From: Brachionus manjavacas
Lineage: Eukaryota > Rotifera > Eurotatoria > Ploima > Brachionidae
Length of the DNA stretch: 64,000 nt
NCBI GenBank assembly: GCA_019054805.1
Contig: JAHQIY010000002.1
Span: 6,386,001 to 6,450,000 of the forward strand
Direction: 5' to 3'
A model generated the notes under the pieces. The model was not told the DNA's origin. It did not search any database and worked only from the letters and a program-made list of their open reading frames with translations. The position numbers and the translations under genes are program-made. Shown in pieces: positions 3,495 through 58,320 of the stretch. Within the stretch, counting starts at the first letter, position 1, and the number at the start of each line of letters is the position of its first letter.

Positions 3495-4851
3495 ATGCTT
3501 AGAGCCATTCAAAAGAGCCATCTTTTGGCACCGCTTGTTACCGGAAATAGCATCTGTCGTCCTATATCTCAGATGCAATCAATAAACTTCAGTGATACCC
3601 ATCAAATGTTAAAAAACACTTGCAAAGAGTTTGTAGACAAAGAACTGCTGCCTTTGGCTGCCAAAATTGACAAAACTAGCGAGTATCCTGTTGAAATTGT
3701 GAGAAAAATGGGAGAATTAGGTCTGATGGCCGTAGATATACCCGAAAAGTATGACGGTGCTGGTTTGGATTATCTTTCATATGCGATCGCAATGGAAGAA
3801 ATTAGTCGAGGATGTGCTAGTACCGGCGTTATAATGTCAGCTCATAATTCACTCTATTTGGGACCTATTTTTAAATTTGGAAATGAAAAACAATTAGAAA
3901 AACATCTAAGGCCTTTTACTAAAGGAGATAAAATTGGTTGTTTTGCACTATCCGAGCCTGGCAATGGCTCTGACGCCGGCGCCGCATCGACAACAGCAGT
4001 GGATAAAGGAGATCATTGGCTCCTAAATGGAACAAAATCTTGGATCACCAATGGATACGAGTCAGAAGCAACAGTTGTTTTTGCCACGACTAATAAGGCT
4101 CTCAAACACAAAGGAATAAGCGCCTTTATTGTTCCGAAACCTCATGAGGGTCTTAGTTTGGGAAAAAAAGAAGACAAACTTGGAATTAGGGCCTCATCGA
4201 CGTGTAATCTCATTTTTGATGAGTGTAAAATACCAAAGGAAAATTTGCTCGGAAAACCTGGTGAAGGCTTTAAAATTGCTATGACAACTTTGGATGCAGG
4301 TCGAATTGGCATAGCCTCTCAAGCATTGGGTATCGGCCAGGCTGCATTGGACTGTGCAGTCGATTATGCCAAAAAGAGAGTAGCTTTTGGAAAAACAATC
4401 GCTAACTTGCAAGCCATTCAAGTATTAAATAATTTTTTTATATTTAATTTTTTTATTTTTTATAATTTATTTTAAAGTTTAAAATTTTTTAAAATTAAGA
4501 TGAAAATAGCCGATATGGAGACAAGATTGGAATCTGCTAGGTTGCTGACATTTAAAGCTGCAGTTCTTAAAGACAACAAAATGCCTTTTACAAAAGTAGT
4601 TATTTTTTATATATAAATATTTAAGTTTTATTTTATTTTTAAAGGAAGCGGCAATGGCCAAATTGGCAGCATCCGAAGCAGCTACTTACATAGCTCATCA
4701 AGCGATTCAAATACTTGGCGGCATGGGCTTTGTGTCCGATATGCCGGCTGAAAGACATTACCGAGATGCTAGAATCACTGAAATATATGAAGGAACTTCC
4801 GAAATACAGCGAATTGTGATTGCTGTAAATGTTTTAAAAGAATATAATTAA
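3495..4851 (+). CDS. ACADS: Short-chain specific acyl-CoA dehydrogenase, mitochondrial
   Basis: FAD flavoprotein catalysing the first step of beta-oxidation of butyryl-type CoA esters in the mitochondrial matrix. Three exons, 3495-4421, 4500-4595 and 4645-4851, all joined in phase 0, give 410 codons (409 aa; family about 412). The first ~25 residues ([14 protein letters not shown]...) look like a mitochondrial presequence. Family signatures are [22 protein letters not shown], the helix [18 protein letters not shown] at the start of exon 2, and [19 protein letters not shown], where the Glu of [10 protein letters not shown] is the catalytic base in short- and medium-chain enzymes. The introns are 78 and 49 bp. 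The open frame running past 4421 is read-through into intron 1. Divergent from the upstream secreted peptide gene. Confidence 0.96.
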
Positions 4852-7526
4852 AAATCGAATTTTTATCCATTTTGTAAATTAAGAGCAAAATAACTATTTA
4901 ATTAAAAAACTTTAAATAAAATGCTTTTTGTAATATTTCAAAAAATAATTTTAGGTTATTTGAAATTTGCTAATGGTTTAAAAATTTAACTGGAATATTT
5001 GATTTTTGAGTAAGTTCACGAAAATTCTGTTTAGGATAAAGATTTTAATTTTAGCAACACCAATTAGTAATATTTGATTGCTTTGATTAGCAGCTTTTTG
5101 CTTGAATAATTTTTATTCAGCAAGATTGGCACCTTATTTTATAAAACAGGAATAAGACTAGAATTAAATAAATTGATTACGAAAAAAATAAAAAATGTAC
5201 ATGTTAACTATAATAAAATTTTATTACTCAAAATTAAAAACATAAAAATTACGCTTTTTAAAAAATTAAGGATGGTCTTAATTAATAGTTAAACAGTTTA
5301 TTAATTGATTTTTAACGCTTGAAGCTCGACTCTTTTGCCTTTCAGTTAAAAAATATTTTATCAAATGCATAGAAGATTTCAGGCTCAAAATAATTAAAAT
5401 AAATATGTGGATTAGTATTATCAGTTCAAACTTTTAATAATTTAAATTTATGCTAAAAATTATTAAATCAAGTCTTTCTATTTTTCAATTTGGTATCGTT
5501 TGAGAAAATTTTTTTTTCTAAAATCCTTCTAAAATTTTCAAGAGCTTTTAGATATTATTGTACTTGAATGTTGTCTCTGTTCTCACTTTTGTCTTTTTTG
5601 AACACTAAAAAGTCGATATATTATAGATTATCATTCTATAAGTATAGTATACTTATAGAATGATAATATAAGTCACTCATCGATTGACATTAAAATTTTA
5701 CTATTTACCCACTCATCAGAAGCTTTTGATACTTGATTTTAAGCTCGTCAAAATGAAAGGTTAAAGCATTAAATTAAATGAATTTAATGAAACCATCGAT
5801 ATTTTGAACAAAAAACTAAATATCGAATTCAATACTTTTGATACTTTTAGATACTTAACTTTTGATATTAAACATTATTTGATCTTTTAGCTAAATATTA
5901 AGTTTTTAATCAAATTTAGAAAGAGTATCAAGCTATCTATTTTGATATCTGAAATTAACTATTATTGGTATTTTTCAAACGATACCTCCGATATATTGTA
6001 TCGGTATCGAGATAAGATTAATTAAAAAGTAATTAAGAATCAGAAATTTAGTTTCTCTCTTTTTTTTTTTCAGTTTGATTTATTTTTAAATCCAACAATA
6101 AGCATATTATCAATTAGATAAAAAAATTTAGAAAAATTTACTTTAAAAACGTGTCAATCAAGTGTCTAAAAAAATCATTGAATATCTAAGACTACTTGAG
6201 CTTAAAGCAATGTAGTAGCTAGATGATTTTTTAAAACTGTTTTTTTTTTCAACGTTTTTAGCTTTTAGCCTTATCTTTTACTGTTTTAAAAATATTTTCA
6301 AAATTATAAACAAATTTTGTGCATAAAATAATTAATTGAGAATAAATAATAGAAAAACACTGCTTTAAAAAAATAATCAAGAACAAAGAGACAATTTTAC
6401 TACAAATGCAAATAACACAAATGAAGATTCAAAGAGAAGATATCTGAAGTTCATGTATGGAATCTTGAATGGAGAAAAGATTTATTGCTTATTTGATTCA
6501 CTAATTCTAAAGCTAATTGATGTATTTAATGTTGTTGAGAATAGTAAGTAAAAATGATACAAATTCATAAATAAGATAGTACATAGGATAAATATTAATG
6601 TTAGATGCTTCAGTACTTAAGATATGGTAATTGAGTATAACTAGATAAAAATGGATCCAAAGAAGAGAAAGGGTGAAACAGTGATTGCAGCACCAGTTAA
6701 TCTTTACCATTTAATAAAAATGGCACTAGGATTAAATAAAGCAACAGTCCAAAGAAAAAAAAATTACTCAATTACATTTTAAAATTTAAATAGGAAAGTA
6801 TTTAACTACCCGTAGAACGAAAAACACCATCAAAATTCAAAAATTTTCAAGATATTATAAAAAATTTGACTAAAGAAATTTTAATTAAGCCTTTTTTATA
6901 TAAATTTTCGTTTTCCAGACAAATAAAAATATTAAAATCTAATTTAAAAAAAATCTTTTAAAATGTAATAAAGCTTTTCTTTGAAAATCTTAAAGTAATT
7001 GTTACTAAAAAACAAAAATTAATTAAATAAAAAAGAACACGCGTTTTTCAAGCGTTTTAACGAGTGACTATTCGTAAGATCATTTTTGGTATGTCAATCG
7101 CAGCATTAAAATTAAACCATAACACAAATTCATCGAAGAATAAATAACACAAATTATTACAGGAAAATTAAAAAATCAATTAATTTTGCAATAGATTGTT
7201 TGATACCAATTCAAAATTTTACATGTATGAGTCTAACAACTCATTTCTCAATCCAAACTTTTTGATTTTTTCTGTCAAATAACTTGGAAAACTGTATGTG
7301 AGGAGAATTAGACATTATGCAGCATTAATACATCATTTTTGGTATGGAAAAGCTTAACTATAACTCAGAGCGATGAAAATATGAAAATAAAAATTTTAAT
7401 TCAAAAATTTTTTTTAAAGAGCTTTTAAATCATTTTTTTTCAAAATTAGTGAAATTTTTTGTTAGATTTGTGCGCAAATATAATTTTTATTTAATAAAAA
7501 AATACTAAATTAATCACTCTGGGGTT
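4852..7526. other. Long gene-free AT-rich spacer
   Basis: 2.7 kb between the convergent ends of ACADS and MCCC2. It holds a near-perfect hairpin at 5627-5667 and, at 5700-6010, several loosely repeated TTTGATAC/GATAC words. Otherwise I see only AT-rich DNA with short ORFs of biased composition. No gene is supported. Confidence 0.5.
5627..5667. repeat. 20-bp perfect inverted repeat with 1-bp loop
   Basis: Arms 5627-5646 and 5648-5667 are exact reverse complements (ATTATCATTCTATAAGTATA and its complement) around a single G at 5647. It could be a cruciform, the tip of a degraded MITE, or a palindromic binding site. Confidence 0.85.
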
Positions 7527-48600: not shown

Positions 48601-50783
48601 ATTTAAAGGTTAATGAATAGCTATTTTTATATTGATGATAAATTAAAAAGGTGTTTTATTCGATTTTAAATCTATCCGTACCAAATTTTATACTTCTTGT
48701 GTATCAATCTTCATAATTGTTCTATCAGATTAAATGTCTTTTTTAGGCATTTTGAAGTTTATGATCAATTTTTGAAGCTCAAAATGATCATTCTGAGTTT
48801 TAATAATGAAATGAATTGTTATTTCTAAATATAATTAATAAAGAGGTTCATTTTTGGATGTAACATTTTTGTTAAATCTAAAGGTAACTTCTGCAATAAC
48901 AAAACGCACATTGCAGAGTGCACACCATTTAAAAGATGCTATTTTAAATTGAATAATTTTTTGCAGAATTTTGCAGAATTATGCAGAATTTAGCTTTAAA
49001 TTTAACAAAGTATGTTAAATCCAAAAATGTACTTCTGCATTAATTCTATTAAGAAATAACTATTTATTTTATAATTAAAACTAAGTATGATCATTTTGAG
49101 CATCAAAATTTGATCATAAACTTCAAAGTGCCTTTTTTTATTACCTTATTGAAGCCTTTACACTTTTAAATAGATTTCATTTTTTATTTTTTTCTAACTG
49201 TTTATATTTAGCCCGCTGATTGATCCGGATATTGATTTGGAAAACGATGGCTTGATCGCGACCAAGTCCAACGCCAAAAAAATGCCATCTGATCTCAAAC
49301 CATTGGACATAAAACCTGAAAAAATTGAACTCTACAAACATTGTGATCCAACTGAGTTTAAAAACAAAGAGTTTAATGTTTGGCTAAGGTGGTGGAAGAC
49401 TTATTTAAGTTCCGAGGACTATATTAAATATTTGACGACTCAGGTAATTTATAATAAAAAAATTAATTTAATTTAAAAAAAATTAAAAGACGTCTGATTA
49501 CTTGGGCCTGATTTTTCATTTGTATGATCAGGACGAAAATCCTATTCTTTCTCAAACCGATGAGGAAATCAAGCTTATAAATGAAAAAGAAAAAGCTGAA
49601 AAGTAAACGGAAATAACTAATATTTGATTTAATTGTTAAAATTTTTTAGGGAGCGGCTTGAAATCATAGACAATCTTAGACATAAAAAATATAACTATGA
49701 GGCTGGTTTGTGGAATCCGGACTCAATATTTTTAGGAGGCCTGGGTATTTTGATTAAAATTATTAATCATAAAAAAGAATTAATTTCTTGTTATAAAATT
49801 TAAGGAAAAGATCCTCTACCTGATAAAAAAGAAGATCCCGTATTCAAATTTAAACAAAGCTTGGAAAACTCCCGTCCTAAAAGTTACAAAATTCAATTTT
49901 TCAAAGGAGACAGAGAAGAAAAAAATGACGAGTTGGAAATTTTAATAGATATTTTTTTCGATAAAATTAATTGATTTTTTTAGAGAAGAGGCTAGGAATA
50001 AAATGCTTGAAATGCTCAAAGAAGTACATAAAATTTAAAAAAAATTCTATCATATTTAAAAATTGATTTCCTTTTTTTAAAGAAAAAAACAGAGTCACCT
50101 CAACAACGATTAGAAAGAGTATGGACACTTTTGAGAATGTCGGACAATGCTAAATTAGACATGGCTATTAAATATTGTACAAGTGCATATGCGGACAAAT
50201 TAATGGAAGTAATTATTTTTTTAATTAAAAAAAAATATCAAGACTAAAAAGTTTATTTTTTAAGGCAATTGAAGACTGGGAGACAGCCACTAATTTGATA
50301 GTTCAGCGTGAAAAACACATTTATGAATTGGAATCATTTGAAAGATTTGCTTCTGATCCAAATAGGTTTTTTATGAAAGGTTTGAATGTTTTTATTAAAT
50401 AAATAAAAATTTTATTTAATAAAAATTTTAAATACTAATTTATGTCGTTTAGGACACCGTGGGAGCTCAGCAGCCCGCTTAGAAGAAGCCCTAAAGAGAG
50501 AAAACCTGTACAAAGTAATTCAATCAAGCTTTTACTTTGATTAATTTTTTAATTTTAATTTTAAAAGCAAATCGAGACTTTACAAACAAAAATAGAAGCC
50601 ATATTGAAAATAATTGATAAAAAATACCGGGATGTGATTACTTACAATGAGAGGCCTTATTTGGAAAAAATGAAATGGGACCGTATTGAAATGCTTCATT
50701 GGTTGACTGAAGAACGGCGCAAAAAATATTTTAAAAACGAAATACGCACTAGACAACTTAAAACAAGTTTAATAGAGATTTAA
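45661..50783 (+). CDS. CCDC87: CCDC87-like coiled-coil protein (sperm/cilium associated)
   Basis: About 19 exons, most joined in frame: an N-terminal exon to 45774, 45824-45896, 45975-46030, 46080-46190, 46269-46322, 46376-46472, 46526-46607, 46657-46789, 46983-47051, 47104-47273, 47327-47381, 47432-47557, 47609-47776, 47831-~48185, ~48218-48540 (with a short intron), 49212-49443, 49490-49602, 49650-49744, 49804-49931, 49984-50023, 50083-50208, 50265-50379, 50453-50514 and 50568-50783. Family matches run end to end: RSYLEGRNMYFSP, ELRRRLFINVISICEKLF, YIGGEVKEVYDELIRTISED, SNAKKMPSDL, WWKTYLSSEDYIKYLTTQ, LERVWTLLRMSDNAKLDMAI, SDPNRFF and YLEKMKWDRIEMLHWLTEER. Vertebrate CCDC87 is testis-biased and linked to sperm function; the molecular role is unclear. 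The start exon and the joins near 48.2 kb are unresolved. Confidence 0.82.
48746..49132. mobile_element. MITE with ~150-bp terminal inverted repeats in a CCDC87 intron
   Basis: Left end AGGCATTTTGAAGTTTATGA at 48746 pairs with the complement of its right end at about 49113-49132. The arms continue inward through TCAAAATGATCAT and CATTTTTGGAT for ~150 bp each with modest divergence. The centre carries three tandem GCAGAATT units (about 48962-48990). It has no coding capacity. It accounts for the 671-bp length of intron 48541-49211 in a gene whose other introns are mostly about 50 bp. Confidence 0.8.
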
Positions 50784-50795
50784 TTTCTTAATAAA

Positions 50796-53700
50796 ATGTT
50801 TTTTAAATTCTTGATTCTCTGGTTTACTTTGTTTCATTGTATATTATGCTTTAATGTCAAAAAATTTTTTTTGGGTAAGAAGATTTTAAAATTTAATTTT
50901 AAAATTGGATTTAAAAAATTTCAAGGAGTCTTGGTTAAAAATGAGATTACTTTTGATGAATCCAAAGAAAAAGCATCAATTGAATTCGCCTTGGAAAAAG
51001 TCAATAAAATAGCTAGATTGAAAGACAATTTTGAACTTGCCCAAATAACTTTTACAGTCGATTTAGAAAATTTATTAAAAATTGAAAATAAAAGTATTCA
51101 GAAAATTTTCGAGTAAATTTTATTTTAAATTTCAATTTTAAGCTTGTAAAAAAGTTCGCTCATCCAACTTTTTGGCACTGTTGAGTGTAGATTTCACCAG
51201 TGATTCGCATATAATTTATTTGCGTAATTTATGCCGATTAGACCATATTCCTTTAATAATGTTCGATTCAGAACAAATTGCTGATGAATTTTTGATAACA
51301 ATGCTTCCTGGTCATGCATCTAGAACAAAAGCTCTTTCAGATTTAATTTTATACTTAAAATGGCCACAATTTGTAATCATTTATCAAGACTCATCAAGTA
51401 TCATTTTATTTAAATAAAAAAAAAAAATAAATAAAAATATTTACTTTAGTGTTCGATAATTTAGGTCTGTTATTTCAAAATTTTATGCATAAAAATATAA
51501 TTTCAATAAAATTGCCCAATTCCGTCGATTTATGGAAGCCTTTTTTGAAGAAACTTAATTATGAAAATTTCGAAAAAATAATTTTAGATATCAAAATAGA
51601 CCATTTGGAACCTTTTTTGAACAAAGTATGTTTATTGTCAAAAAATTTGTATAGCTAAAAAATATTGTATTTAGGCTCTTGAAGTGGGTTTTTTGAACAC
51701 AAATAAAGAGTTTGTTTTCACTACTTTGGTAACTGCAAAGCTTTGATTTTTCAGGACTTTTTCTAATTTTTATGTTTAGGATTTATCGATGATTAATATG
51801 GAGAGATATGTCTGGCTCGATGTAAACTTTACTTCATTTGAAATAATAGATAGCAAAAGTGAATTGTTGAGATCAATGGTCAAAGAATGGATGCTAAACG
51901 AATTTAAAGGAAAATCTAGTCCGCTTGCTAATGAAAAAACATTTAGTGTAATTTTTCACATTTCAAATAAAAATAAATAAAAATTTAGAAATGTAGGCTA
52001 AAAATGGTCTAATATTTGATTCGATTTTAATTGTAGCTGAAGCATTGTCAAACATTCTTAATTTTAAAAATGATATCGATCTTTTTTTTGAAGAATTAAA
52101 ATCAGTAATTTAGAAAAATTATTAAATTTTTTTTAAATATATTTTTATTTAGATAAGATTATATGGATCAACGGGATACATTGATTTTGACAAAAATGGT
52201 TTAAGGAAGCATTTCGAGGTGCATTTGATTTCATTGAACCGGAATGGTTTGGAAAAAGTGGGAGCATGGAGTCCAACAGTTGGCTTAAATGTCACCAATC
52301 GAATCGGATTCGAACCTTTGATTAAAAATGATGATTTCAATGAGCAGAAAAGACACCTTCGAATCGCAGTTGTAATTGTAAGGATTGATTTTTATTTTTA
52401 GACCTTTTTAAATCTTTATTAAAGGAAAAACCTTATGTTAGTTTTAAAAATAATTCAGATGGTTTACACGGAAATGATAGATTTGAGGGATTTTGCATAG
52501 ATTTACTAGATGCTTTGGCTGAATTATGCAATTTTAATTACACAATACATAAAGTGTTAGATAACAAATACGGAACGCAGAATAAAAACGGTGAATGGAA
52601 TGGACTGGTCAAAGAAATTTTAGACGATGTAATTTATTCTTTTTCTAATTCGAAAAAAAAAATTTTTTACTAATCAATTAAAAACAGAGGGCTGACATGG
52701 CATTGGCTTCATTGACCATCAATTTAGCGCGATCAAAAGCCATCTACATGACAAAACCATTTTTAAATTTAGGACTTAGCATTTTGTTTAAACAACCTGA
52801 ACCAAAACCTCCGAAAATTTTGTCTTTTCTGGCTCCTTTATCTTCAAAAATTTGGATATACATGTTTTTATCCTATTTGAGTAAAAAAAATATTTTTGTT
52901 AAATTTTGATTTCAAATTTTACAGTCACAAGTATGGCCATGTTTATAAATGCTCGCATCTCTCCCAGTGAATGGCTCAAGATTAAACGCTGCGGTTCTCG
53001 AAGTGATCTTAGAGAAAATCAATTTACATTAAAAAATTCATTTTGGTACACTATAACTTCTTTTTTGCACATGGGTGTGTTTTTTATGGCTCATTTACTT
53101 AGGCTTTTCTTTAATTTTAATCTCAAGGAATTGACATAAGTCCGCACGGAGTTTCAACCCGGCTGCTCAACTGCACTTGGTCCCTATTTACATTGATTCT
53201 TACCGCATCATACACTGCAAATTTAGCCGCTTTTCTCACTGTCAAAATAGTTGAAGTTCCCATCAAAAATGCTGAAGATCTAAGCCTGTAATTAAAAAAT
53301 ATCTAAAAATTAAAAAATTTAATTTTATTCACAAGGCAAAGTGAAATTAGCTATGGTTGTTTGTCAGGTGGATCGTCGGAAACTTTTTTTAAAGTAAGCT
53401 AAACTAGCTAAATCTTTTAGTTTTAATTTTCATTTAGGAATCAAAAATTTTGACTTATGAGCGCATGTGGAAATTTATGAGCGAAAAAAATACATTGGTG
53501 GCTTCTACTCAAATTGGCATCGAACAAGTCAAGAAGGGAAATTTCGCTTTTTTGCTAGAGTCCACTTCAAACGAGTATGCCAGAGAGAGAAATTGTGATT
53601 TGATTCAAGTTGGCGACTTGCTTGACACCAAGTCTTACGGACTAGGTCTTAGAAAGGACCTTGAATGGAATGAGGAGATTTCGAATGCAATTATAATGCT

Positions 53701-53968
53701 ACAAGAAAAAGGCGTCATTCAAAAAATTTATGAAAAATGGTGGAAGTTGATCGGCAGTCTAAACTGTCATCAGACAAAAAGTGAGTCGAATGCTAGCGCC
53801 ATGAAATTTCAGAATATACGAGGAATTTTTTTTGTGCTCGGAGTTGGTCTGGTCATTTCATGTGTGGTGTTTTTGAAGGAGAGAACTTGGAAACATTTTA
53901 AGACAATACCAAAGGCTAATTTAGACAAAATCGAGCTCTATCAAGAACCTCTAATTTCTCAAGTATAA
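50796..53968 (+). CDS. Ionotropic glutamate receptor, kainate/AMPA class
   Basis: Fourteen exons: 50796-50874, 50926-51093, 51143-51397, 51450-51625, 51675-51728, 51780-51947, 51997-52104, 52153-52377, 52425-52628, 52688-52880, 52925-53074, 53128-53287, 53336-53393 and 53438-53968, giving 843 codons (842 aa). Introns are 44-55 bp. Order: signal peptide ([19 protein letters not shown]), amino-terminal domain, ligand-binding S1 ([17 protein letters not shown]), M1, pore loop, M3 [13 protein letters not shown]2 ([20 protein letters not shown]), and M4 ([18 protein letters not shown]). Glutamate-binding Arg (TINLAR), Ser (GG-SS) and Glu (LLEST) are present. The usual Pro of the APLTI motif is Ser (ASLTI). 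The Q/R-site region reads FLHMG instead of FMQQG. Starts 12 bp after the CCDC87 stop. Confidence 0.93.
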
Positions 53969-54116: not shown

Positions 54117-54395
54117 CTAGTGTCCTCCAACTTGCTCCTGATAAACTTCGATTACGTCTCCGTCCTCCATTTCAAGGGTTTTAGGTGTCTCATCGTCATT
54201 TATTCTTTTTCCATCAAATAAAAATCTCAATGAGCCGACAGGTACGCCTTGTCTGTCGCTGTAGGACTTTTTCAGTTTGCCCATGTTGGTCGAAAGCTTG
54301 ACTTTGAAATGGACTTCGCTATTGTCTTGGCCAACCACCTTTAGTTTAATGTATTCATCGCTTCCTTCAGCTTTTGGTTGATTAGTATCGGACAT
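54117..54395 (-). CDS. SUMO: SUMO (small ubiquitin-like modifier)
   Basis: Single-exon, 92-aa protein: a flexible N-terminus, then a beta-grasp fold with [55 protein letters not shown] and [17 protein letters not shown]. The conjugation di-Gly is residues 90-91, so SUMO proteases need remove only the terminal His. It modifies lysines of nuclear proteins through E1/E2 (Ubc9). Length and sequence place it in the canonical animal SUMO group; I do not assign a numbered paralogue. No intron is present, unlike nearly every other gene here. It lies convergent with the glutamate receptor, 148 bp apart. Confidence 0.95.
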
Positions 54396-55256
54396 TTTTG
54401 TTTTAATTTAAAATTATTTTAGCGAGTAGATTTCTATAATATACTATGAGAAGAAATAATTTCAGCTAAACAATCAGATAGAAATATAATGTACGAGCAA
54501 GCGAGCTCTTTTTTGAGCTAAGAAATGTGTGAATGTACGCGAATGCAGAGCTAATTATTTTTGAAATTTTTGCACGTATTTCTTGCAGGACTAGAATGCT
54601 ACCCATTCAGTCTGATTGGCAACTGTAAAGATTTATTTTTTCAATTGTACATAATCTCAGAGACTAAGCGGATAATTTTTTGGCTAGTTTTGATGTGGAA
54701 GGTTTTGTGTTACTGTGTGCAATTTCCTCCAATGTTAATATTGTTTTATGCTAATCAAATGTTGAAAGTTAGTTCAATTTGTTTCATTTTTGGATTTAAT
54801 TTCAAAAAATAAATTTATTAAAAATTTTATTTTCACATTGTGATAAAAATTAGTAATAAAGACAAAAAAATATCTAATTTAAATTTTTTTTTTAATTTTT
54901 TAAATACGCCCCCTTTCTTATTTCCTATTTAGGACGCAATATCTTTTTTAAGCTAAATCAGCTAATTTTTATGCAACATTTCTTTATGAAAATGTTGTTC
55001 ACAATACTCATGTGATGGAGGTAATTAATTCAAAAACGTGTGTTATTGAAAATAGAAAAAAAAGCAGACCACCAAAATGTAAAAATTAAGTGATTTACTT
55101 TTTTATTAAATTGACTAATTTTGATATTATTATTTAATAAAATTTCAATATCAATAAATTAATTCGAATATCAATTAATCAATTTCAATATCAAGTTTAA
55201 TATTGAAAATTCAATTTAAATGATATTGAGGTATAAGAGACCCTATTAAACTAACA
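54396..55256. other. Spacer upstream of SUMO
   Basis: Holds the SUMO promoter. A GC-richer patch at about 54480-54620 includes repeated GCGAGC/GCGAATG words. An 83-codon plus-strand ORF at 54561-54812 is hydrophobic, Phe-rich and unconvincing. No other feature is seen. Confidence 0.4.
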
Positions 55257-56420
55257 CCCGTATTTTGAAATTTCCAAAGCCTTTGACAGGGTTTGGCATG
55301 AAGGCTTACGTGATAAATGGATTAAAATGAATCCTCCTCACAACTTGACTAACTGGATTAGATCCTTTTTAGACTCTAGGACATTTAAGGTAAATGTGAA
55401 TGACCATTTGAGCGAAGAATACCAAATAACCGCAGGTGTTCTTCAAGGCTCAGTAATTATTCCTTTTTTATTTAGTAGATAAATTAATGACATCCCCAAA
55501 AGAAACAAAACAAATAATGAATACTCTCTGCTTTTCGCAGACAATCTAGTTACACTCTTCATTTACAAAACAATGGTTTTTAAGTGGAAAATGAAGATAT
55601 CAGTTGAAAAGTCGTGTATCCTTTTTAATTACAAGAAAAAGAGATTGATAATCTTAACTTAAAAATTTCTGGAAACAGAATAGTGAGCCAAAAAGAAATC
55701 AAGTTTCTTGGTATTAAATTTGATTCTAAGTTAAATTTTAATTAACTGGTAGACGAAATTAAAGAACGCTACAATAAAAGGCTAAATATTATCAAGATAT
55801 TGTCAAACAAAAATGGGGTCTAAACCAAAACACACTAGGAAATTTATTTAAATCTTTAGTCGGATCAACTTTAGACTTTTATTCTCCTTGCTTTAATTCA
55901 TTTTCAGAAAATAATATCCAAAAACTACAAGCAATTCAGAATACAGTAGTAAGATCTATCCTTAAGTTAAAATATGATAATCCTTCCAACATGGTGCATC
56001 ATGAGGCTCTTAATAAATTTAAATTACTAACATTCTCGAATCGGCTTTTTGAGTTGAGTTAGATATGTTGGGACAGAGCTGACTCATTCTATTCTAATGG
56101 TTGTCGGATTAGTGAAGGAATACAAAGAAAGCTTCGAATCAAGATATACTGGATACCCAACTCCATTGTGTAATTGCTACCTTACTATTTTCTCTTATTT
56201 TCCTGAAGTTTCATGTAAAAATGTGTCATATGTAGCAACCAATTTCAATATATGTTTTTTTAACTTTCTTAACATTTTTTTAGCTTATTTACCTAATTTT
56301 GATTTTTATTAGATCTTATTTTATTAACTTTATTTTTTTTTCTATAATTTATTCTGAAGGAACTCTAGCTCGGTACAGAAAACAAACAAATAATATCAAT
56401 AAATAAAAATAAAATAACAC
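55257..56420 (+). mobile_element. LINE family C, degenerate copy (plus strand)
   Basis: Translates with several stops and frameshifts as reverse transcriptase: FEISKAFDRVWHEGL, NLTNWIRSFLDSRTFKVNVN, ITAGVLQGSVI.PFLF, NDIPK, LLFADN and KEIKFLGIKFDSKLNFN, followed by a post-RT region with KLQAIQNTVVRSILKL. The 3' part at 56130-56200 matches 24815-24890. It ends in an AAATAAATAAAAATAAA-type tail near 56400. The 5' end is truncated; the copy is dead. Confidence 0.8.
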
Positions 56421-57509
56421 CTTAAATAAAAAAAAACTCAAAAAATAAACTATTACATATTCTTTATTTATCTGTGACAAGCCAGAACTCTTTCAGGTTA
56501 AAAAGAATAAAATATACAAAAAACTAAAACACTAATTTTCATAAGACTTAAAGACCTTTAAAAATTAAAAAATAAAATTTGGTTCAAAAGTTTAGAAATT
56601 CTGACGATTCAAAAGATTAAAAAATTGTAGCAATCTTTTTTCACACCCTTATGACCAATTCTTACATATCTTCTAATTTTGATAATTTGTGCTCCTATTT
56701 ACTTATATATTTCAAAAAACACCTTTTGGGTGATGAAGAAAAAAAGCAAATTAAAATAAAGCATAAAAGGACAGTTTATGTTTCCATAATAAATAAACTT
56801 GCTTTATGGTAACACAGCCTAAATGTATCTAATGTAAATTCGGTGACGTAATTTGAAAAACCGAAATATATCAGTCGTTTTATTTTTTTTTTTAACAACC
56901 CACATATTCTTGTAGATCTTGAAGAGAGAAATTCAAATATAAATATGAAATATTTTTGAAAAATTTTTAAACCTTTTTTTTTAATTCAAAGTTTTTTTTC
57001 GGCTAATTCGGTAGAATTTTTCAAATTAGTAATTATGTTTGACAATTTTTGATCCGATGACGGAACAAGTTTGAACTGAACCTTATTTGCTTATCGTTTT
57101 CAGTGGATCTTAATTAGTAGAAAATAATTTTACTAGAATTTAAGTTAGCCGATGGGCCCGTTGTCTAATGTTGTTATTTTTTATGGATTAAGAGGTTAAT
57201 GAGGTATCACCTCAATACCCAAAAATCCCACCCATTTTCCCCTAAAAATAAAATATTTGACATAATTAGACTGAAAGGACAAAAATGATCACAATGACGT
57301 CATTTTTTTTGAAAAATTTAAAATTTTGTTTCTTCTTTTTTTACAAAAATAATTTGATTTTATTTGATAAAAAATATTCATTCTGTATTATCAAAAATCG
57401 TCAATATATTATAAAAATGAATCAGAACAACAAAAAGAAGTTAAAAAAAAAAGTATTCGATGGAAGATCTTGATAACGCAAAAAAAGATGTTTTTGAAAA
57501 AAAATTGAA
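56421..57509. other. Gene-free AT-rich spacer
   Basis: No gene recognised. Two plus-strand ORFs (57285-57473, 57460-57669) are composition-driven or run into the GC-rich LINE in the wrong frame. Confidence 0.4.
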
Positions 57510-58320
57510 CACCACTCGGCGGCCAAAGCCAACTCCATTCTTGGACAACTCCGCCAGGCCTTCCATGCCTGGAATCCTCAATCCTTCAAGTCCCTGTACA
57601 CTGCTTTTGTCCGACCCCACCTCGAATATGCCACCTCAGTATGGAATCCCCATAGACGAGCAGATGTAAGGATCATCGAAAACATCCAAAGGAGAGCAAA
57701 CAAACTAGTAGGCCGCATCAGAGACCGTAGCTACCAAGACAGGCTCGCCATCCTGAACCTAACCACCCTCGAATCACGCAGATCAAGGGGTGATCTCATC
57801 TCCCACTACAAGATCGCAAATGGACTACTTGACGTCAAATGGCTAGCCTCAACCAATTTTATGTCGTCCATCGCCTGCCACGGTCCAGCCAACGCAATCA
57901 GGGGTCACAAAAAACGCCTTTTTGTCCAACTATCCAACTGCCCGGCGCGAACAAACTTCCTAAATAACAGAGTTGCATCTATTTGGAACAACCTTGCGTC
58001 CTCGACAGTCAACGCTCCAACCCTTAACAGCTTCAAGGCCCGCCTCGACATACATCTTGCCCGCACGAACACCACCACCACCTAAACCTCAACGACCAAC
58101 CATGGCCCAGTCAGTGAGACGGTGAGTCGAAGGCCTGGGCACTCCCCAGAAGCGTTTACGCTAGGACTGGAGTGGCCTTAGCTAGAAAACTCATCGTCCC
58201 ACATTCCTTCTTGCCAAACGCACAACCAGTCATCATAGCGATTCAAGTTGTTTTGGATTGCTTGCAGGGTGATTCCCTGCTATGACTCAATTTATTATTA
58301 TTATTACTCAAGCTTTAAAT
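57510..58320 (+). mobile_element. GC-rich 5'-truncated LINE (family D) with intact C-terminal frame
   Basis: An abrupt switch from AT-rich to markedly C/G-rich DNA at about 57510. One uninterrupted frame to the stop at 58083-58085 reads SAAKANSILGQLRQAF, SLYTAFVRPHLEYATSVWNP, IIENIQRRANKLVGRIRDRS, YQDRLAILNLTTLESRRSRG, DLISHYKIANGLLD and FLNNRVASIWNNLASS. This is the post-RT domain of CR1/L2-like LINEs (KAN.xLG, VRPxLEYA, RRATKL, RRxRGDLI). The 3' UTR to about 58310 ends in TTATTATTATTATTA, the short tandem tail typical of such elements. Codons mostly end in C, the opposite of host usage. Confidence 0.85.

Follow-up and report, generated by a model that had tools for sequence, protein, structure and literature searches.

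The window, a 64,000-nucleotide stretch of the rotifer Brachionus manjavacas genome (contig C2, 6386001-6450000), carries a predicted kainate-type ionotropic glutamate receptor gene on its forward strand (50796-53968), a gene that is unusual within a known family. The assignment draws on the gene model, Pfam and the match to GluK2. The gene comprises 14 exons that encode 842 amino acids and ends with a TAA codon at 53966-53968. The model was built by codon and splice-site scoring with the start and stop set by hand, and the same 14 exons, spanning 50796-53965 before the stop codon and encoding 842 amino acids, were obtained under two of three intron penalties. Under the heaviest penalty, intron 1 is retained and exons 5 and 7 are skipped, giving 805 amino acids, while exons 9-14 are unchanged. 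All 13 introns are of the GT..AG type and 44-59 nt long.

The predicted protein has the domain order of ionotropic glutamate receptors, with Pfam matches above cut-off to ANF_receptor (PF01094, residues 42-366), Lig_chan-Glu_bd (PF10613, 404-517) and Lig_chan (PF00060, 532-804); an SBP_bac_3 match overlaps part of the ligand-binding region. By the gene model and Pfam, exons 1-8 (50796-52377) encode the start of the protein, the amino-terminal ANF_receptor domain and the lead-in to S1. Exons 9-10 (52425-52880) encode the S1 half of the ligand-binding domain, with the motif ASLTI and the conserved arginine as placed by alignment, and the start of M1. Exon 11 (52925-53074) holds the end of M1 and the first part of the pore loop, finishing with LHM and the first base of a glycine codon, and exon 12 (53128-53287) holds the remaining pore loop with an aspartic acid at +4, M3 and the start of S2. 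The rest of S2 is divided between exon 13 (53336-53393), with GGSSETFFK, and exon 14 (53438-53968), which contains LLEST with the conserved glutamate, M4, a short C-terminal tail and the stop codon.

Directly upstream lies a multi-exon gene on the forward strand (about 49200-50783), two scanned pieces of which gave no Pfam match. Directly downstream, on the reverse strand, is a SUMO-like gene (54117-54395) with Rad60-SLD and ubiquitin Pfam matches. Two open pieces further along the forward strand (55255-56062 and 57498-58085) resemble by eye the reverse transcriptase of non-LTR retrotransposons; the piece at 57498, scanned alone, had no Pfam match.

Pore and ligand-site residues

Exons 11 and 12 join in phase 1 to encode a 25-residue stretch that phmmer aligns without a gap to 25 residues of the GluK2 pore. 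Because the pore loop itself (19 residues in each protein) also aligns gaplessly, the Q/R site is assigned to a histidine codon, CAC, at 53068-53070, and the +1 position to a methionine codon, ATG, at 53071-53073, where the other seven AMPA/kainate sequences compared have glutamine. The codons across the junction read TTG CAC ATG G|GT. The first-pass annotation had reported histidine at this site with methionine replacing the next glutamine, and the gapless alignment, which leaves the site where it was placed, together with these codons bears this out; at the level of genomic sequence, the histidine is confirmed as real. The acidic residue that the kainate class carries at +4 is present as aspartic acid (HMGID). 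Glutamine, or an edited arginine, at the Q/R site is typical of the class without defining it, and the gene has histidine instead.

The pore loop is interrupted by a 53-nt, phase-1 intron (53075-53127, GTGTGT..CAAG), whose retention introduces a stop codon. Its donor begins GTG, whereas the other 12 introns begin GTA. C5b, a paralogue described below, has an intron at the matching place and in the same phase, after MQQ and one base of a glycine codon; the earlier proposal that the pore is assembled across 53074/53128 in consistent phase agrees with this arrangement. When GT or GC donors from 52961 to 53120 were combined with AG acceptors up to 53200, 16 junctions, including that of the model, kept the frame open. 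None of the 16 restores the glutamine pair, and the pore loop is complete with 53074/53128 alone. Introns 10 to 13 (44, 53, 48 and 44 nt) are too short to hold another pore or M3 exon, which rules out alternative pore/M3 exons like those of C5b for this gene.

M3 carries the SYTANLAAF motif within a stretch of 12 residues. In the alignment, the arginine (LAR), serine and glutamate (LLEST) of the ligand site are kept, and these are presumably residues 485, 654 and 705 in GluA2 numbering. The earlier statement that the M3 motif and these three residues remain is therefore seen directly in the alignment, yet the neighbouring position, which we take to be Thr655 in the same numbering, is serine. 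The sequence GGSSETFF thus keeps Gly653 and has serine at 655. In the part of PMC6307864 drawn on here, Arg485 and the acidic residue 705 hold the amino-acid backbone, and Gly653 with Thr655 forms the rule for the glutamate-binding subset. The replacement of APLTI by ASLTI in S1, also noted at first pass, is real, and the paralogues vary here too (AGLTI, SAFTI and GGLTI).

Kainate affinity and rate of change

The receptor protein matched 392 distinct PDB sequences. Among the matches listed (the best 60 of 392), the top one is GluK2 (5kuf; 543.6 bits, residues 41-821); the best AMPA chain scores 424.5 bits, and a GluK5 chain, at 423 bits, does not surpass the AMPA chains. Over the ligand-binding and channel part, identity is 47.8% to GluK2 and 40.5% to GluA, so that by both bits and identity the gene is closer in sequence to GluK than to GluA. 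In small trees of nine and eight rows, it falls outside the supported AMPA clade and forms one clade with two other genes of this genome, C5a and C5b (support 95/99 when an NMDA row is included and 98/99 when it is left out). No supported fork in these small trees joins this clade to GluK2.

The rate of change was compared across eight AMPA/kainate sequences, namely six from this genome with GluK2 and GluA1. The window gene is the most changed of the eight, differing at 16 of the 113 columns in which the other seven agree; the corresponding counts are 4/101 for GluK2, 8/105 for GluA1, 2/99 for C5a, 0/97 for C5b, 10/107 for another gene on contig C2 (near 4,543,000) and 3/100 and 1/98 for two genes on contig C1. 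Two of its changed columns immediately precede SYTANLAAF, and another belongs to the ligand site. Relative-rate counts with GluK2 as outgroup are 79 v 30 relative to C5b and 71 v 34 relative to C5a; with the other C2 gene, 64 v 25 and 62 v 33, respectively; and with GluA1, 73 v 21 against C5b and 64 v 42 against the other C2 gene. The count for C5a against C5b is 33 v 22. The end branch of the window gene measures 1.34, versus 0.22 and 0.12. With GluK2 as outgroup, changes unique to the window gene or to C5b number 26 v 6 in M1-M3, 20 v 11 in S1, 28 v 10 in S2 and 5 v 3 in M4. Acceleration limited to the pore was considered and rejected, since the acceleration extends beyond M1-M3, where the ratio is highest. 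The substitution at the Q/R site is part of a broadly diverged, fast-changing gene.

Glutamate receptors elsewhere in the genome

The assembly (114 Mb, 61 contigs) contains 14 matches to PF00060, assigned to nine genes. One of the nine, a divergent receptor gene on contig C14 (L011, C14:856500-864500) that is NMDA-like in look, lies below the curated cut-off, and C40 has one more weak match, to PF10613. Pores were read in eight of the nine genes, with the C14 gene left out. Four of the eight have glutamine at the site: C5b, the C2 gene near 4,543,000 and the two C1 genes, which are AMPA-like. The kainate-type C5a has lysine (AAA) in the sequence MKQG (C5, L009 reverse complement, about 6377-6394), and a C15 gene, which we take by its motif to be GluN1-like, has asparagine. 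In the C6 gene, arginine (CGA) occupies the pore asparagine site in LLFRVA (L014, about 4825-4842); the best match of this C6 piece, in a search at a threshold of 1e-52, is GluN2A, to which it aligns gaplessly through the pore with arginine for GluN2A's asparagine, and the piece is without a match at 1e-60. The site residue is thus positively charged, or able to be so, in three of the eight genes (lysine in C5a, histidine in the window gene and arginine in the C6 gene).

Taken as a whole, the first-pass reading is right about which residues occupy the pore, where the exons join and how the receptor is built, on the strength of the gene model, Pfam and the GluK2 alignment. Comparison with other genes, which that reading did not have, shows that the histidine does not stand alone as a pore change: C5a has lysine, the GluN2A-like gene has arginine, and the window gene differs at 16 of the 113 columns where the other seven agree. 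With glutamine, lysine and histidine across the three kainate-type members of a single clade, and arginine in the GluN2A-like gene, the genome would offer a natural series of pore charges without RNA editing.

C5a and C5b lie about 10 kb apart, on a different contig from the window gene. C5b (C5, near 2,596,000) has two tandem 218-nt exons, at L010 reverse complement 5594-5811 (A) and 5900-6117 (B), which have equal phases, are identical at 40 of 73 amino acids and span the lower part of the pore, M3 and the beginning of S2. The frame stays open with either exon alone, and including both or neither leads to an early stop, so that by sequence they look like mutually exclusive exons. No such pore/M3 pair in ionotropic glutamate receptors was found among the titles listed for mutually exclusive exons of these receptors. 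In vertebrate AMPA receptors, by contrast, the flip/flop pair sits at the end of S2, as described in part of PMC8257547. Exons 12 and 13 of the window gene (53128-53393), which together also measure 218 nt (160 + 58), are nearest C5b exon A, with 45 of 73 residues identical against 38-40 to the other four sequences; tree support for this grouping is just 85/84, and exon A is equally near GluK2 (45), the other C2 gene (46) and the window gene. Exon B groups with C5a (95/92). The exon pair may predate the divergence of the window gene, C5a and C5b, and it is perhaps a more interesting lead than the histidine.

Predicted function and comparison with known receptors

The Q/R site is the classical calcium-permeability switch of AMPA and kainate receptors. 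The reading we favor, with a probability of roughly 0.68, is that the window gene encodes an intact kainate-type subunit, strongly diverged, which likely contributes to a glutamate-gated cation channel whose ionizable, genome-encoded histidine would lower calcium flux and polyamine block. The subunit would probably form this channel with paralogues such as C5a and C5b. A partly protonated histidine at the narrowest part of the filter would be expected to reduce both calcium permeability and polyamine block, with a smaller effect than that of a fixed arginine or lysine and a stronger one at acid pH. That the predicted channel works is likely because the 842-codon frame is intact. Altered permeation is plausible by analogy, since in both a placozoan receptor and human GluA2 substitution of the Q/R/N residue alters calcium permeation and polyamine block, according to the part of PMC12226733 drawn on here, which also describes the +4 acidic residue as required for polyamine block. 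With 16 changed columns, including those near SYTANLAAF and in the ligand site, the subunit may respond to glutamate differently or not at all. Expression, a response to glutamate, heteromer formation and the change in permeation are all matters that we infer from the predicted protein.

The same divergence would be expected if constraint had been relaxed, with the frame still open and channel function fading, or with the product acting as a non-conducting or dominant-negative subunit; histidine and methionine would then be two of many tolerated changes. The 16 of 113 altered columns (against 0-10 of 97-107 for the remaining seven sequences), the relative-rate counts against C5b and C5a with GluK2 as outgroup (79 v 30 and 71 v 34) and the end branch of 1.34 versus 0.22 and 0.12 all agree with such fading. 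The 842 codons without a stop, the 13 GT..AG introns, the 12-residue M3 stretch and most of the ligand contacts have nevertheless been kept, and we regard relaxed constraint as unlikely. A more elaborate role for the histidine is doubtful: in a homotetramer, four histidines with four methionines one step on would form a titratable, metal-binding ring in the filter. Such a channel would detect glutamate together with protons (or Zn2+ or Cu2+) and have a pH-tuned calcium flux, and with the lysine and arginine paralogues it would mean that a range of pore charges is hard-coded in separate genes, where vertebrates use RNA editing.

Editing might also act in this gene, as a single A-to-I change in CAC would recode histidine to arginine (CGC) and make the mature channel resemble an edited vertebrate receptor. 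The codon adjoins an intron, and the genome has seven matches to the adenosine-deaminase domain PF02137, of which two adjoining ones on C1 cover positions 1-200 and 196-329 of 329. This family also includes tRNA deaminases, so the matches do not prove an editing enzyme, and no excess RNA structure stability was found around the histidine codon (52990-53210; z -0.10), where 92 of 200 shuffles are at least as stable. Editing of this codon thus appears very improbable. An error in the assembly or a wrong junction in the model, hiding a true pore with the usual glutamine pair, is prompted by the GTG donor found at the pore intron only and by the use of a single assembly. The histidine and methionine codons nevertheless lie inside exon 11, upstream of that donor, no open junction of the 16 yields QQ, the intron position and phase are common to C5b, and the GluK2 alignment is gapless, which together make such an error the least probable of these explanations. 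The intact kainate-type subunit with an encoded histidine remains the preferred reading.

A basic residue at this site in the kainate group is unusual, yet within a known kind, because the site varies across animal ionotropic glutamate receptors (PMC6307864; PMC12226733), though glutamine is the usual residue there in AMPA, kainate and related receptors (PMC12226733). In the newly reported receptor groups covered by the relevant part of PMC6307864, glutamine is found at the site in only a third of receptors. A measured or otherwise reported histidine at the Q/R site, whether in ionotropic glutamate receptors generally or in rotifer or Brachionus receptors, did not appear among the listed titles and opening lines of abstracts from openly licensed papers, which is weak evidence of absence.

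The window gene shares with the kainate receptors GluK1-GluK3 (represented by GluK2, 5kuf) the domain order, the gapless pore, the 12-residue M3 stretch, the ligand-site arginine, serine and glutamate and the acidic +4 residue. GluK1-GluK3 have glutamine at both the Q/R and +1 positions, whereas the window gene has histidine and methionine; GluK2, 47.8% identical over the ligand-binding and channel part, also has Thr655 where the window gene has serine. The paralogues C5a (lysine) and C5b (glutamine) belong to the same clade, are 51.4% and 51.7% identical to the window gene, respectively, and are both less changed; C5b likewise has a phase-1 pore intron but differs in having two alternative pore/M3 exons, which the short introns of the window gene could not accommodate. 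The lysine of C5a gives, in genome-encoded form, a positive charge like that of edited vertebrate receptors. Placozoan GluE1 epsilon receptors have a similarly non-canonical Q/R/N site, with serine, leucine or alanine, and the one studied keeps the +4 aspartic acid, as described in part of PMC12226733. They belong to another subfamily, in which the effect of a neutral serine has been measured, whereas the effect of the protonatable histidine is predicted. AvGluR1 of the rotifer Adineta vaga is, like the window gene, an animal ionotropic glutamate receptor with an unusual filter; in the portion of PMC12332018 cited here, that filter is a potassium-channel signature, whereas the window gene has an ordinary glutamate-receptor loop carrying histidine.
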